In this document: piece after piece, positions 1 through 41,793 of the stretch | Numbering within the stretch: the stretch's first letter is position 1 | How the letters are laid out: every line of letters begins with the position of its first letter | From: Candidatus Levilactobacillus faecigallinarum | GTDB taxonomy: Bacteria > Bacillota > Bacilli > Lactobacillales > Lactobacillaceae | NCBI GenBank assembly: GCA_019113985.1 | Contig: DXGJ01000036.1 | Span: 1-42,184 of the forward strand | DNA length: 42,184 nucleotides | Reading direction: 5' to 3' | The notes under the pieces: model-generated | What the model was told of the DNA's origin: nothing | Databases searched by the model: none | Seen by the model: only the letters and a program-made list of their open reading frames with translations | Program-made: the position numbers and the translations under genes

Positions 1-80
1 AGCTCGGCCTTGGTCTAAGCCGAAAAGCCCCCTCGGCTAAGACCAACGACACCACGGGGCCAAAGTCGGCTCCGCTACGC
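1..80 (-). repeat. Structured three-way-junction repeat, copy 0 (cut by window edge)
   Basis: Read on the minus strand, this stretch begins with the same left flank (GCGTAGCGGAGCCG) as the copies at 182 and 391. It then shows a hairpin with arms TTGGTCTTAGCCGA and CGGCTTAGACCAA, followed by AGGCCGAG, the junction motif of the family. The hairpin carries the same internal T-T mismatch (TTAG opposite CTTA) as every other copy. The right half lies outside the window. It is in inverted orientation relative to the next copies. Confidence 0.7.
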
Positions 81-181
81 GTACATTCTAACGAATTGTA
101 ACGTTGGAGCGAAAGACCGCCGAAACTGGCATCACGCCAAACATCGACTACTACCGAAGCTAATTGGTAAGTTTAACGGTT

Positions 182-390
182 GACATCACAAGTAGCCAAC
201 AATCACTACATTTAGCGTAGCGGAGCCGGTTTGAGCGCCTGTAGTGTCGTTATTGTTAGCTGGCGTTCTTTGCCGGCTTACAATAAGGCCGAGTTCTCGA
301 GACAAGGTGGACTCCCTTGGCTTGAGAATCGTGCCCACTACAGGCGCTCGGTGCCGGCGCAACGGAGCGGACGCCTCACATAACGCTGCC
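182..390 (+). repeat. Structured three-way-junction repeat, copy 1
   Basis: A perfect 14-bp outer stem pairs 233-246 (GAGCGCCTGTAGTG) with 336-349. Inside it are two hairpins. Arm 1 (250-285) has TTATTGTTAGC paired to GCTTACAATAA with one T-T mismatch. Arm 2 (293-328) has TTCTCGAG paired to CTTGAGAA, with an inner CAAGG/CCTTG stem. The unit is repeated directly 209 bp downstream. No convincing ORF lies in it; the open frames here are by-products of the repeat. Confidence 0.8.
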
Positions 391-599
391 AACATCACAA
401 GTAGCCGACAACCACCACACTTAGCGCAGTGGAGCCGGTTTGAGCGCCTGTGGTGTCGTTATTGTTAGCTGGCGTCCTTTGCCGGCTTACAATAAGGCCG
501 AGTTCTCGAGACAAGTGGGCTTTCTCGGCTTGAGAATCGTGCCCACTACAGGCGCTCGGTGCCGGCGTAACGAAGCGAACTTCACCGCACACGTTGCCC
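391..599 (+). repeat. Structured three-way-junction repeat, copy 2 (direct tandem of copy 1)
   Basis: This is a direct repeat of 182-390 at a period of 209 bp. The outer stem is 442-455 with 544-557, keeping pairing through one G-T wobble. Arm 1 is almost unchanged. The loop part of arm 2 and the right flank after about 567 have diverged. The right flank (GAACTTCACCGCACA) is shared with partial copy 3. Confidence 0.8.
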
Positions 600-709
600 G
601 ATCCACAAAGTCTTCGCGTAGCTTCGGAGTCGTGCCCACTACGGTAGCTCGGTACCGGCGCAACGGAGCGAACTTCACCGCACATGTTGCTCGACCCACA
701 AAGGTATTT
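600..709 (+). repeat. Structured repeat, partial copy 3 (right half only)
   Basis: This stretch contains only the right half of the element: a short arm 2 (GCTTCGGAGTC), the constant GTGCCCACTAC motif at 632, and the right flank with CACCGCACATGTTGC, which duplicates 581-600 about 92 bp away. The left outer-stem strand and arm 1 are missing, so it cannot form the full fold alone. Confidence 0.65.
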
Positions 710-756
710 AGCCAATAGTATACCATGCTCGGCGGGAAGAAAACGGAAAAAGAGGG

Positions 757-785
757 TTGACGGTCAAACGGCGTTGCCGTACACT
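757..785 (+). promoter_or_regulatory. Sigma-A promoter for the trp leader and trpXYZ
   Basis: TTGACG at 757-762 and TACACT at 780-785 are separated by exactly 17 bp. Transcription would begin near 792 and run through the leader peptide and both leader terminators before trpX. Confidence 0.75.
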
Positions 786-822
786 GAATTTATTCAAATC
801 CACGAGAGAAAGGAAAGTTCAT

Positions 823-870
823 ATGCAAATGTCTAACTTACAACTTAATGGACGTTGGCAAAGCCGGTAA
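823..870 (+). CDS. Putative Trp leader peptide, 15 aa
   Basis: A 15-codon ORF, M-Q-M-S-N-L-Q-L-N-G-R-W-Q-S-R, is preceded by AAAGGAAAG at 5-6 nt spacing. It sits between a good promoter and tandem terminators. Its single tryptophan codon (856-858) lies four codons before the stop, where a stalled ribosome would mask the base of the downstream hairpins. I infer a transcription attenuation leader controlling the adjoining trpXYZ-like transporter. A T-box was considered and not seen, since there is no GGTGGNACCGCG-type antiterminator motif. One Trp codon is few for an attenuator. Confidence 0.55.
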   Translation: MQMSNLQLNGRWQSR

Positions 871-933
871 TCAAGTCGTTATCAAGTAGATGCGACTTGA
901 GCTCACAGAGTGCTCTTCGCATCTGCGCCGGCT
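862..933 (+). promoter_or_regulatory. Alternative hairpins of the trp attenuator
   Basis: Two perfect 8-bp hairpins compete: 871-878 with 893-900 (TCAAGTCG/CGACTTGA), and 888-895 with 917-924 (AGATGCGA/TCGCATCT). They share 893-895, so only one can form. In addition AGCCGG at 862-867, just before the leader stop codon, can pair with CCGGCT at 928-933. Mutually exclusive pairing next to a leader peptide is the hallmark of attenuation. The exact antiterminator could not be identified by eye. Confidence 0.5.
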
Positions 934-948
934 AACTTTCTGATGGAG

Positions 949-990
949 AGGCCCGCACGGATGTTTTATCCGCCAGCGGGCCTTTTGTTT
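949..990 (+). terminator. Leader terminator 1 upstream of trpX
   Basis: AGGCCCGC (949-956) pairs with GCGGGCCT (976-983), with a second inner stem CGGAT/ATCCG, followed by TTTTGTTTT. It lies between the leader promoter and trpX and no gene ends here, so it is a regulatory terminator. Confidence 0.85.
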
Positions 991-991
991 T

Positions 992-1021
992 GGGCACCCG
1001 CCTGGCGTGGGTGCCCTTTTT
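992..1021 (+). terminator. Leader terminator 2 in tandem
   Basis: GGGCACCC (992-999) pairs perfectly with GGGTGCCC (1009-1016), followed by TTTTT. It directly follows terminator 1. CCCGC at 997-1001 can also pair with GCGGG at 976-980, so the two terminators may be structurally coupled. Confidence 0.8.
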
Positions 1022-1103: not shown

Positions 1104-2099
1104 ATGAAACGCTTATATGGACTCATCGCGATTCTGGTCCTGTTCCTAGGCTTCGCCTTCGTCCAGGAAAGTCACCAGAAAAACACTCAAACCACCGGGA
1201 CGCCAACCGTCGGCATCCTGCAACTGCTCTCCCACCCCGCCCTGGATGCCATCCACAAGGGGATCATCCACGGGTTGGCCGAGGAGGGCTATCATGTGGG
1301 CAAGAACGTCAAAATCGACTTTCAAAACGCCCAGAACGACCAAAGCAACCTCAAAACCATGAGTTCGCGCTTTGTTAACGAGAAAGCCAACGTCATGATT
1401 GGCATCGCCACCCCGGCTGCCCAGGCTTTAGCCAACGCCTCCAGCACCACGCCGGTCGTTCTAGGCGCCATCACCGACCCCAAGGGTGCCGACCTGGTCA
1501 AGAGTAATACCCGGCCCGGCACCAACGTCACCGGGGTCTCCGACCAGGCACCTCTAAAGTCCCAGCTAAAGCTGATTCAGAAAATCATGCCGAACATGAA
1601 AACGCTGGGCATCATCTACACCTCGTCCGACGACTCAGCCACGGCCCAATATCACCAGTTTGCGGCCCTGTGCAAGCAAGAAAACGTTAAGCTCAAGGCC
1701 TACTCCATCGCCAACACCAATGATTTGAACCAGGTCGCCCAACAGATGGTCTCCCAGGTCGACGCGGTTTACGTGCCGACCGACAACACCGTCGCCAGCG
1801 CCATGCAGACACTGGTCGCCACGGCCAACGCTAAGAAGGTTCCCGTTTTCCCCGCCGTTGACACCATGGTCAAGGCCGGTGGGCTCGCCACGTTAAGCAT
1901 CAACCAGTACAAGCTAGGCGTTGAGACCGGGAAGATGACTGCCGCCATCCTACGGGGTAAGAATCCAGCTACCACGCCAATTCACTTCGAACGTCGCGGT
2001 GAGATGACCATTAACTTATCCGCTGCCAAGAAGCTGGGCATTACGCTACCTAAAGATGTCGTTCAAGAAGCACAACAACACGGGGAGGTCTTCAAATGA
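1104..2099 (+). CDS. trpX: ABC transporter substrate-binding protein, tryptophan type (TrpX family)
   Basis: The 331-residue protein belongs to the ABC_sub_bind (DUF534) family of periplasmic-type binding proteins. It has an N-terminal hydrophobic segment at residues 4-20, then the two-lobed fold starting at PTVGILQLLSHPALD. Family members called TrpX bind tryptophan, which agrees with the Trp-codon leader upstream. The N-terminal segment has no cysteine, so the usual lipobox is absent; the protein may be held by an uncleaved membrane anchor. The ribosome site GAGGATG precedes the ATG. The stop overlaps the permease start by 4 bp (ATGA), so translation is coupled. The substrate assignment is inference from context. 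Confidence 0.8.
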   Translation: MKRLYGLIAILVLFLGFAFVQESHQKNTQTTGTPTVGILQLLSHPALDAIHKGIIHGLAEEGYHVGKNVKIDFQNAQNDQSNLKTMSSRFVNEKANVMIGIATPAAQALANASSTTPVVLGAITDPKGADLVKSNTRPGTNVTGVSDQAPLKSQLKLIQKIMPNMKTLGIIYTSSDDSATAQYHQFAALCKQENVKLKAYSIANTNDLNQVAQQMVSQVDAVYVPTDNTVASAMQTLVATANAKKVPVFPAVDTMVKAGGLATLSINQYKLGVETGKMTAAILRGKNPATTPIHFERRGEMTINLSAAKKLGITLPKDVVQEAQQHGEVFK

Positions 2100-2995
2100 G
2101 TTTAATCGTATCTACCATCGGGCAAGGCCTCTTATGGGCCGTTTTAGGAGTCGGGCTGTTCCTGACCTTCCGGATTCTGGACTTCGCCGACATGACCGTC
2201 GAGGGCACGTTCCCCCTGGGGGCCGCAACCTGCGTCGCCGCCATCAGTAACGGCATGTCGCCCATCGTTGCAACGCTCCTGGCCTTTATCGTTGGGAGCC
2301 TGGCCGGCTTGATTACCGGTCTCCTATACACCAAGGGGCACATCCCCATCCTGCTCGCCGGTATCCTGGTGATGACCGCCTGCTACTCCGTCAATCTCCG
2401 GATCATGGGCCGGGCCAACGTGTCACTGATGGGTAAGACCACCCTGTTCAAGAATTCTTTTCTGGAAGGCCTGCCCCAGTACTTCGACAGCGTCTTTCTT
2501 GGCATCCTGGTGATGGTCGTCGTCACCGGTATCGTCATCTACTTCTTACAAACGGAGCTGGGCCAAGGCTTCATCGCGACCGGCGATAACCAGACCATGG
2601 CCCGTTCATTGGGTATCAACACCGATAACATGAAAATCATGGGCCTGATGGTCTCCAACGGCCTGATTGCCTTCGGTGGCGCCCTGGTCGCCCAAAACAA
2701 CGGGTACGCCGACGTCAACATGGGAATCGGCATCATCGTCATCGCTCTAGCCTCAATCATCATCGGGGAAGTCGCGTTTGGCGACCTGACGTTGAACCAA
2801 CGGTTGGTCGCGGTCACCCTGGGGAGTATCCTCTACCGCTTCGTCCTGTTGATTGTTCTGAAGTTGGGTTTCAACGCCAACGACCTGAACCTGTTGTCGG
2901 CCATCGTCCTAGCACTGTGCATGATGCTGCCAGTCTTCAAGAACGCCTTCAACTTCAAGCACATCCTGAAACGGGGGTTAGATACCAATGACTGA
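2096..2995 (+). CDS. trpY: ABC transporter permease (TrpY family)
   Basis: The 299-residue, strongly hydrophobic protein has about eight or nine membrane segments. It resembles the branched-chain/sugar-type permease superfamily (BPD_transp_2), for example FRILDFADMTVEGTFPLGAA near the N terminus and ASIIIGEVAFG in the middle. It would form the membrane channel of the tryptophan-type importer. It overlaps trpX by 4 bp and trpZ by 8 bp, so all three genes form one translationally coupled operon. Confidence 0.85.
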   Translation: MSLIVSTIGQGLLWAVLGVGLFLTFRILDFADMTVEGTFPLGAATCVAAISNGMSPIVATLLAFIVGSLAGLITGLLYTKGHIPILLAGILVMTACYSVNLRIMGRANVSLMGKTTLFKNSFLEGLPQYFDSVFLGILVMVVVTGIVIYFLQTELGQGFIATGDNQTMARSLGINTDNMKIMGLMVSNGLIAFGGALVAQNNGYADVNMGIGIIVIALASIIIGEVAFGDLTLNQRLVAVTLGSILYRFVLLIVLKLGFNANDLNLLSAIVLALCMMLPVFKNAFNFKHILKRGLDTND

Positions 2996-3758
2996 ACCTT
3001 TACTCGAACTCAAAAACGTGGTCCTCAAGGTCAACCGTAACACGCCTGAGGAAATCACCATTCTGAACCATCTCGACCTGACCATCAACGCCGGGGACTT
3101 CATCACGGTCCTGGGGTCTAACGGGGCTGGTAAATCGACTCTGTTCAACGCTATCGGCGGCGACTTAACCATTGATAGTGGCCAGATTCTTCTGCACGGC
3201 AAGGACATCGCCCATGAGTCCGTCGAGAAACGCACCCGGTTCCTCAGCCGGGTCTTCCAAGACCCCAAGTTGGGGACGGCGCCGCGGATGACGGTTGCCG
3301 AAAACCTCCTATTGGCCGAGCGCCGGGGGCAGCGTCGTAGTTTGATGCCCCGCCGGCTTAACCGCAATCTGGCCCACTACCGCGAATTAACGGCCACCAT
3401 GCACAACGGTCTCGACCAACGCCTGACCACGGCGACCGGGAACCTCTCCGGCGGGCAACGCCAGGCCCTGAGTTTCCTGATGGCGACCCTCAAACGTCCT
3501 GAAATTCTCCTCCTGGATGAACACACGGCCGCCCTAGACCCCCAGACCAGTCAGGACCTGATGCACCTGACCAACCAGCGGGTCCAACAGGAACAGCTAA
3601 CCTGCCTAATGATCACCCACCACCTCGAAGACGCCCTGACCTACGGCAACCGACTGATTGTCCTGCACCACGGCCAGGTAACCTACGACGTGGCCGGCGA
3701 CGAGAAGGCCGCTTTAACCACCGAGAAACTCTACAGTTTCTTCGCCGAAATCGAATAG
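2988..3758 (+). CDS. trpZ: ABC transporter ATP-binding protein (TrpZ family)
   Basis: The 256-residue ATPase drives the trpXYZ importer. Walker A is GSNGAGKST (residues 43-51), the Q loop is in VFQDPKLG, the ABC signature is LSGGQRQ, Walker B is ILLLDEHTAALD, and the switch histidine is in MITHH. The start lies inside the end of trpY. A strong bidirectional terminator follows the stop. Length and motifs are normal for the family. Confidence 0.9.
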   Translation: MTEPLLELKNVVLKVNRNTPEEITILNHLDLTINAGDFITVLGSNGAGKSTLFNAIGGDLTIDSGQILLHGKDIAHESVEKRTRFLSRVFQDPKLGTAPRMTVAENLLLAERRGQRRSLMPRRLNRNLAHYRELTATMHNGLDQRLTTATGNLSGGQRQALSFLMATLKRPEILLLDEHTAALDPQTSQDLMHLTNQRVQQEQLTCLMITHHLEDALTYGNRLIVLHHGQVTYDVAGDEKAALTTEKLYSFFAEIE

Positions 3759-13836: not shown

Positions 13837-13936
13837 GCATAGCGGTACCGTGGGGAAATGATACTTAGTCGGCGTTTTTTGCCGGCTTAGTATCAGGTCG
13901 AGCTTCGGAGTCGTGCCCACTACAGTACCGCTGAGC
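13837..13936 (+). repeat. Structured three-way-junction repeat, copy 4
   Basis: The outer stem pairs AGCGGTAC (13841-13848) with GTACCGCT (13925-13932). Arm 1 pairs GATACTTAGTCGGC with GCCGGCTTAGTATC, again with the T-T mismatch in the TTAG/CTTA context. Arm 2 is very short, around CGAGCTTCGGAGTCG. The constant motif GTGCCCACTAC follows. Stem sequences differ from copies 1 and 2 on both sides, so pairing is kept by paired changes. Confidence 0.75.
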
Positions 13937-13973
13937 CAGCGGAGCAGAGCGGCAACAGCGACACGTTATGCTA

Positions 13974-19233: not shown

Positions 19234-19380
19234 GGGACGGTTCTGGGGGGCCAGAGTGGTGAAATTTGTGTTAGTCGGGCGAGTTTTCCCGGCTTACACA
19301 AAGGCCGAGCTTGAAGACTCACGGGTTGGGTGAGGCTTCAAGTCGCGCCCACCACGGACACGGCCCCCCAGAACCGTCCC
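19234..19380 (+). repeat. Structured three-way-junction repeat, copy 5
   Basis: The outer stem is a perfect 19 bp, 19234-19252 with 19362-19380. Arm 1 pairs TTTGTGTTAGTCGGG with CCCGGCTTACACAAA, with the same T-T mismatch. Arm 2 pairs CTTGAAG with CTTCAAG and CTCAC with GTGAG. The constant motifs AGGCCGAG and GCGCCCACCAC flank the arms. The fold is the most complete in the window. Confidence 0.8.
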
Positions 19381-31043: not shown

Positions 31044-31125
31044 TCAAATCCGACGGGGTGCCATTACGGCTGAGATCAAACCCATTGAACCTGCTCTGGT
31101 TAGGACCAGCGAAGGGACGGTGTTT
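31044..31125 (+). ncRNA. TPP riboswitch (THI element)
   Basis: The conserved TPP-binding segments are present in order: GGGGTGCC, CTGAGA at about 31070, and ACCCATTGAACCTG followed by CTGGTTAGGACCAG and CGAAGGGA. It precedes a terminator and the ykoE gene, so thiamine pyrophosphate would shut off the operon. A possible promoter is TTGCAT (31005) with TACGCT (31028). Confidence 0.95.
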
Positions 31126-31144
31126 ATTATCACAGTAAGTCACA

Positions 31145-41638: not shown

Positions 41639-41668
41639 AAGTGTCATTCAAAAATACTAAATATGTAA

Positions 41669-41738
41669 TTGCCTATATAATGCCAAGATAGGGTTGGCGA
41701 GTTTCTACCTGGGACCGTAAATCTCAGACTATAAGCAA
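41669..41738 (+). ncRNA. Purine riboswitch, guanine type
   Basis: P1 pairs TTGCCTATA (41669) with TATAAGCAA (41730-41738). P2 pairs GCCAA with TTGGC around the loop GATAGGG. The core is GAGTTTCTACC, and P3 has the loop CCGTAAA. The specificity base in GACTAT is C, as in guanine/hypoxanthine-sensing members; adenine sensors have T there. Confidence 0.93.
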
Positions 41739-41793
41739 ATTGAGGACCCAAACTCTTTTTGCCGATGAAAAGAGTCATCGGTCGAGTTTTCAG

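Follow-up and report, generated by a model that had tools for sequence, protein, structure and literature searches.

Integron attC sites are folded recombination sites in which constant unpaired bases stand among variable stems; integrase binds their R and L boxes, and they lie in cassette arrays. Compared by description, the repeat family that we report here shares the constant unpaired bases and the variable stems with attC, but its copies are dispersed. BIMEs are inverted doublets of palindromic units, and we liken the divergent pairs of the present repeat to them. REPINs, according to PMC3116915, are intergenic palindromic units of high copy number that form inverted doublets with a spacer and are predicted to fold as single-stranded DNA or as mRNA. 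The present repeat resembles REP, BIME and REPIN sequences in being intergenic and high-copy and in forming inverted doublets with a spacer between genes, although many of its halves are nonetheless single. It is unlike them in that its unit is a covarying three-way junction of 128 nt, does not correlate with Y1/RAYT genes and displays compensatory change in orthologues.

The repeat also has properties that PMC10969869 gives for bacterial MITEs: it is short, structured, intergenic and present in many copies, has no long ORF, and carries terminal inverted repeats in one genome (G018). It differs from MITEs in its conserved internal fold, which is present twice and kept across subfamilies with differing ends, in the lack of a consistent target duplication in 31 G018 spans, and in that no parent IS was found in those spans and the three end-motif sites of genome G082 that were inspected. 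BOX, RUP and SPRITE of Streptococcus pneumoniae are regarded in PMC3049150 as parasites confined for the most part to S. pneumoniae and S. mitis. Like them, the present repeat is a high-copy, structured and slowly mobile repeat of a Lactobacillales genus; unlike them, it occurs in 13 of the 40 genera sampled and is under selection in place, a distinction drawn by description only. Covarying structures of Lactobacillales have been described as Rfam motifs (Lacto-rpoB, Lacto-usp, lactis-plasmid and others; PMC2864571), and a further survey names Lactobacillus once, as L. johnsonii (PMC2267715). The initial annotation of this DNA knew of no described element of this form, and among the matches listed in our search of the open-access literature we likewise found no description of the family. 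It had also raised membership of a MITE family: no described one was found in the same literature, but the ends are MITE-like in one species, so that “a MITE” may hold as a kind.

The window, by which we mean the whole stretch of 42,184 nucleotides that was analysed, is contig C5 of a draft genome of Candidatus Levilactobacillus faecigallinarum (1.76 Mb, 65 contigs, 72% complete). Below, a half is one copy of the folded repeat, and R1 and the broader R2 are covariance models of it. The window contains the following features:

1-68, minus strand: half truncated at the contig end, forming the left side of a divergent unit (R1 match 53.8 bits, 3' end missing)
69-227, no strand: inner spacer, placed between the divergent halves (minus half to plus halves)
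228-355, plus strand: complete half (R1 131.6 bits; fold z -8.4)
437-563, plus strand: second, tandem complete half (R1 129.8 bits; fold z -7.1; linker TCG 456-458, arm 1 459-495, arm 2 496-543)
621-666, plus strand: remnant with just the 3' portions of arm 2 and the outer stem (85% to query 109-154 in blastn)
13837-13937, plus strand: single half (R1 82.2 bits, R2 80.4 bits; fold z -6.3)
19239-19369, plus strand: single half (R1 84.2 bits, R2 98.8 bits; fold z -10.6)

Each copy is a three-way junction: an outer stem encloses two arms. As read from the predicted fold of half 228-355, the outer stem P1 is followed by a three-base linker (TCG, 247-249), by arm 1 (250-286) with a T.T mismatch at 257/279, and by arm 2 (287-335) with a bulged T at 332. 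Half 13837-13937 has the linker AAA (13856-13858), arm 1 at 13859-13895 (GATACT/AGTATC) and, from 13896, a short arm 2. Half 19239-19369 has AAA (19262-19264), arm 1 at 19265-19301, arm 2 at 19302-19349 and an outer stem in which an internal loop separates 19 bp from a further 6 bp. None of 200 shuffles folds as well as the real sequence for any of the four complete copies (z -6.3 to -10.6), which bears out the claim of an outer stem and two arms whose sequences vary and stay complementary. The copy at 1-68 taken alone does not fold significantly (z -1.5, with 18 of 200 shuffles equally good). Six copies or part-copies had been counted initially; five are structured copies, and the sixth, placed at 600, is the 3' remnant 621-666, which has no fold signal (z +0.6). 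For two copies the folded parts begin about 45 bases after the proposed starts of 182 and 391, which include flank common to the two tandem copies. For the halves at 13837 and 19239, the model search (filters off for 13837) found no convincing divergent partner within the window. The sequence of the 1-68 copy also ends contig C60 of the draft genome (32144-32267, minus strand), and the repeat seems to break the assembly: the window begins inside one copy and contig C60 ends in the same copy.

The window holds other structured sequences as well. TPP and purine riboswitch aptamers at 31044-31134 and 41653-41751 score above the Rfam thresholds and are ordinary. By eye, a short frame containing one Trp codon, and after it a hairpin-like sequence, can be made out at about 823-991, upstream of an ABC transporter operon (1104-3758); the Rfam trpB motif reaches E 2.9 there, below threshold, and this is perhaps a Trp attenuator.

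The pairing was assessed in a MAFFT alignment of 45 copies from the window's genome (A1), which was not fitted to a model; a filter dropped 7 of 54 candidate copies, and the window copy at 13837 was put back. Of its 46 base pairs, 32 have changed on both sides. The paired fraction of A1 cells is 96.2%, as against 34-44% with the partners slid by 1-3 columns and 80.5% with the 3' letters shuffled; 296 cells have changed on both sides, as against 82.6 in the shuffles; and the covariation score is 0.432, as against 0.150 in the shuffles and 0.039-0.085 in the slid controls. On none of five measures did any of 500 shuffles match the observed value, so the covariation proposed from a handful of copies holds over many.

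Certain unpaired features vary less than the stems do. The T.T mismatch, initially ascribed to every arm 1, is nearly invariant and not literally universal: it is found in 44 of the 45 genomic copies and in 141 of 145 in A4, a set of 147 rows from many species (A4, like a further alignment, A5, was fitted to the model and is biased towards it). The T-A pair beside the mismatch is present in 141 of 141 in A4. The bulged T of arm 2 is kept in 44 of the 45 genomic copies, and the A4 column reads 129 T, 8 C, 3 other and 7 gaps (129 of the 140 with a letter). GGYCGAG between the arms, and GTGCCCACTAC or GCGCCCACCAC after arm 2, are present as claimed. GTCG before arm 1 proved not to be constant: it occurs in copies 1-68, 228 and 437, but the copies at 13837 and 19239 have GAAA. 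In the 45 genomic copies the linker is TCG in 29, AAA in 13, AGA in 2 and TAA in 1, which is to say TCG or AAA in most.

Mismatches distinguish the two strands. G.T outnumbers A.C by 131 to 23 in the genome set (57 to 23 omitting columns with a G.T majority) and by 273 to 56 in A4, and because of this excess the fold of the strand read initially seems to be the one that is kept. Folding with DNA parameters is equally significant (z -9.2 and -11.9), and good folding is seen for the antisense DNA strand too (z -8.1 and -10.0).

R1 matches 71 places in the window's draft genome, where blastn of one copy finds 48. Within Levilactobacillus, 33 of 35 genomes have R1 matches, from at least 10 to at least 99 each; the other two, G011 and G024, have no match with R1 or R2. 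Such copy numbers are lower bounds, since no more than 99 or 150 candidates were scored per genome, and no more than 8 or 11, with stricter filters, in the searches over 40 genomes. In a sample of Lactobacillaceae, R1 matches 87 of 301 genomes and 13 of 40 genera, and in an order-wide sample searched with strict filters R2 matches 24 of 395 genomes, all of them Lactobacillaceae. Among the samples searched, the repeat is thus found only in this family. Named records of Companilactobacillus, Pediococcus, Lapidilactobacillus, Lacticaseibacillus and Schleiferilactobacillus and a Limosilactobacillus MAG also gave R1 or R2 matches. A motif pattern scan of genome contigs, from which names only were taken, returned Lactobacillaceae mixed with chance-like matches in unrelated phyla among the matches listed. 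The comparison with Rfam called for at the outset found no family over the element, be it in the window at the gathering threshold, in window positions 1-1000 up to E 5, or in 20 loci of many species up to E 0.5; the repeat differs in this from Lacto-rpoB, Lacto-usp and lactis-plasmid, as no Rfam model matched it in the sequences scanned.

Blastn of a window copy gave no match in 72,556 plasmid or 50,697 phage records, and blastn of a G018 unit gave none in the plasmid records. A longer query with a copy from genome G005 matched 11 plasmid records: two L. brevis plasmids hold a true copy, and several of the other matches are to the ileS gene in the flank of the query. Of 12 viral contigs with the motif pattern, none has a model match at the locus. 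In the two L. brevis plasmids (L309, L310) the element directly follows an S8 protease gene, and where one plasmid has a partial second half, the other carries a peptidylprolyl isomerase gene.

The usual unit is a divergent pair: two outward-facing three-way-junction halves and a spacer. Among close neighbours in four genomes we counted 116 in -/+ order, 7 +/+, 4 -/- and 1 +/-, that is 116 of 128 divergent (48/50 in G018, 20/22 in 400 kb of G023, 29/36 in G032 and 19/20 in G030, the last two among the matches listed). Neighbours were taken at a start-to-start distance below 900 bp in G018, G032 and G030 and at a gap below 1500 bp in G023, and one G032 match on another contig is omitted. At this sensitivity 35 of the 84 units in G018 are single halves. 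The divergent pairing and the nearly invariant bulged T were missed in the initial annotation, from which the spread over many genera could not be seen.

The terminal inverted repeats CGCCTTACCGG...CCGGTAAGGCG enclose 31 spans of 226-591 bp in G018, in which the longest ORF is 82 aa and there is no transposase; the 15 or so bases outside these spans are weakly conserved, and other subfamilies have different ends around the same core fold. Five other spans between end-like motifs, of 44, 45, 1929, 2009 and 3935 bp, were excluded: by inspection, the two near 2 kb hold transporter-like ORFs and the longest a glutamyl-tRNA-synthetase-like ORF. One such stretch (L117 14458-16466) is an AT-rich MFS-type transporter gene between element-end-like sequences, either captured cargo or chance. 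No target-site duplication recurs consistently among the 31 spans; the best candidates are a single 7-bp repeat at equal distances and a single 8-bp repeat.

The ten top matches in G082 are all single halves, at unrelated sites, and four that were compared are 83-98% identical over 198-335 bp; very similar copies occur at unrelated sites in G158 also. By eye, the ends of the G082 copies resemble inverted repeats, and one of the ten copies is flanked at both presumed ends by a 9-bp direct repeat. The end motif occurs at 22 sites in this genome at up to 3 mismatches, against 6 in a reversed control. Three of these sites with ORFs were inspected: two (L437, L442) have no transposase, and the third (L445) encodes an HTH_38 + rve transposase of 338 aa. 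The latter IS (L419/L445, 2.781-2.782 Mb) stands in the right end of one of the ten copies, its ends differ from those of the element, and about 15 element bases beside it are repeated on both sides; it reads as an insertion into the element, not as the parent of it. We infer that the units spread by transposition as non-autonomous elements. At L032 1580-1800 and in G000:C27 near 4069 and 4159, a complete half is followed by two tandem repeats of the 3' part only, about 90 bp apart, as in partial amplification. A copy near 1506 of L437 (G082, 763.5 kb) is without both arms and lies between two GTG triplets, as expected for a hairpin-mediated deletion.

The units are mainly intergenic, usually on the downstream side of genes. 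Across 800 kb of G018 and G023 there are 52 unit clusters: four share more than 60 bp with an ORF, and four lie between divergent genes, a setting found for 42 of the 168 gaps longer than 300 bp (P 0.006, with unit-bearing gaps counted among the 168). The 84 units of G018, whose contig begins with a DnaA-like frame, fall into five bins from origin to terminus as 26, 29, 17, 12 and 0 (P 2.5e-8). G030, whose contig begins by inspection with a DnaN-like frame, has no such enrichment (P 0.14), and origin proximity as a general property was dropped.

We then compared resident copies between the sister species G021 and G026, whose main aligned stretches are 83-94% identical and which have many insertions in common. 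Of 43 model matches in the fetched G021 stretches, 38 were mapped, with 35 distinct partners, 34 of them far enough from the locus ends. With G021 as the reference, these 34 halves have changed at 126 of 2443 paired sites (5.2%) and 215 of 1639 unpaired sites (13.1%), and their flanks at 702 of 3472 inner (20.2%) and 500 of 3460 outer sites (14.5%). One-sided changes keep the pair in 56 of 88 cases, where placing the same substitutions randomly gives 35.5 +- 2.1 (0 of 2000 simulations), and 17 pairs have changed on both sides where 3.2 are expected, 14 of them still paired. With G026 as the reference the compensatory excess is smaller, yet present: paired sites have changed at 145 of 2466 (5.9%), unpaired at 12.3%, inner flank at 20.0% and outer flank at 14.3%; 56 of 114 one-sided changes keep the pair against 41.1 +- 2.6 (0 of 2000), and there are 15 doubles against 4.2, 11 of them paired. 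A set of 37 halves that includes shared partners agrees (5.4% paired-site change; 66 of 101 kept against 42.5; 20 doubles against 3.9), as does a filtered set of 16 halves with three low-identity ones dropped. Changes away from Watson-Crick pairs give G.T in 30 cases and A.C in 13 (P 0.014). Pairs taken straight from the fitted alignment A5 give 106 broken against 60 kept one-sided changes, no better than chance, which we put down to misplaced columns in A5; the other counts use direct pairwise alignment.

These comparisons show that the fold is kept in resident orthologous copies by purifying and compensatory change, with the sense strand preferred, in one sister-species pair, on which the result rests; halves too decayed to be detected in both species are omitted, which favours conservation. 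Separately diverging resident copies with compensatory change mean that the stems are not kept merely through recent identical copies, and together with the strong covariation they support the initial view of selection on a folded RNA or single-stranded DNA over simple duplication. The evidence counts against the simplest view of resident copies, that they are neutral. Because the shape is kept by matched mutations at old individual sites, the repeat probably does something at the sites where it is inserted. None of six candidate empty-site loci aligned between the sister species is a clean empty site: four read as a deletion of the folded part with the outer sequence remaining, one is unclear and one is a longer difference. 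As the folded part is missing in one species at four of the six, no single copy is shown to be essential.

What that role may be is a matter of weighing several readings. The halves may act as RNA: a three-way junction in the 3' untranslated part of a read-through transcript would protect, process or terminate the message, and the pair would serve both directions. The covariation, the sense-strand preference for G.T over A.C and the scarcity of units between divergent genes (4/52 against 42/168 gaps), which places them mostly downstream of genes, favour such a role, but a transcript from either direction would meet the antisense half first, and no Rfam family matched. Conservation is also independent of the direction of the upstream gene: paired sites have changed at 64 of 1163 (5.5%, 16 halves) where the half is sense to it and at 61 of 1198 (5.1%, 17 halves) where it is not (P 0.71), in a comparison with few halves and with ORFs as a proxy for transcription. 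Promoters within the spacer itself were rejected, as there is no excess of promoter-like sites: with a simple consensus, 1 of 61 spacers in four genomes other than the window's has one, against 2.85 +- 1.8 in mononucleotide shuffles. We regard an RNA role as a real possibility, if a doubtful one.

Alternatively, the repeat could be a purely selfish, MITE-like element that needs its fold only during transposase action, with neutral resident copies in which template switching between the arms makes the paired changes. The inverted-repeat ends of the 31 ORF-poor G018 spans would suit such an element, as would the near-alike copies at unrelated sites of G082 and G158, the single 9-bp direct repeat and the loss of the folded part in some copies. 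Against this, paired sites in orthologues have changed roughly 2.5- to 4-fold less than the sites around them, a difference expected neither under neutrality nor under template correction; template correction would moreover remove the T.T mismatch and give no preference for G.T over A.C. The same fold is kept across subfamilies with different ends, and the G018 elements lack a consistent target-site duplication, so we consider this account unlikely. Far less probable is a REP/REPIN family moved by RAYT or another Y1 transposase. Intergenic inverted doublets, more than 100 matches in some genomes and an imperfect, mismatched hairpin next to a short linker all recall REPINs, but the unit of about 128 nt has three stems in place of a single short hairpin. 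Mobilisation by RAYT/IS200 was rejected on distribution: Y1_Tnp (PF01797) is present in 23 of the 35 genus genomes without tracking the element, is absent from 12, 10 of which have at least 60 element matches, and occurs five times in G011, a genome without the element.

Because conservation ignores the direction of the upstream gene and promoter-like sites are not in excess, we lean to a role at the level of DNA over one in read-through RNA. Each half would act as a single-stranded or cruciform-extruded three-way junction in DNA, in which a putative host protein would recognise the linker, the T.T mismatch next to the invariant T-A pair, and the bulged T. The stems would serve just to hold linker, mismatch and bulge in place, and the divergent pair would, by analogy with BIME/REPIN doublets, be two such sites in mirror orientation. 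The strand preference suits single-stranded DNA or RNA better than it suits a symmetric cruciform: the antisense strand can fold as well, so a plain cruciform does not predict the preference, and a functional RNA equally predicts G.T over A.C. We hold to each half being a DNA recognition site tentatively, with somewhat less than even confidence. It is possible, though less likely than not, that the family represents a new class of genome element. A Lactobacillaceae protein would then read the three-way junction, folded in single-stranded or extruded chromosomal DNA, at dozens to hundreds of sites, often mirror-paired, and selection at each resident site would maintain the fold and not the sequence.

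The description of the family itself, as short non-coding repeats of many Lactobacillaceae with this fold and this pairing, is nearly certain, and the covariance model can annotate it across the Lactobacillaceae. Bacterial intergenic repeats of high copy number are often taken for parasites, since it is difficult to demonstrate selection on single copies. For the present repeat the sequence itself gives such evidence, in that the paired sites of old orthologous copies are protected and compensated, and in harmless food bacteria the question of whether such repeats serve the host, as RNA or as DNA, becomes testable.
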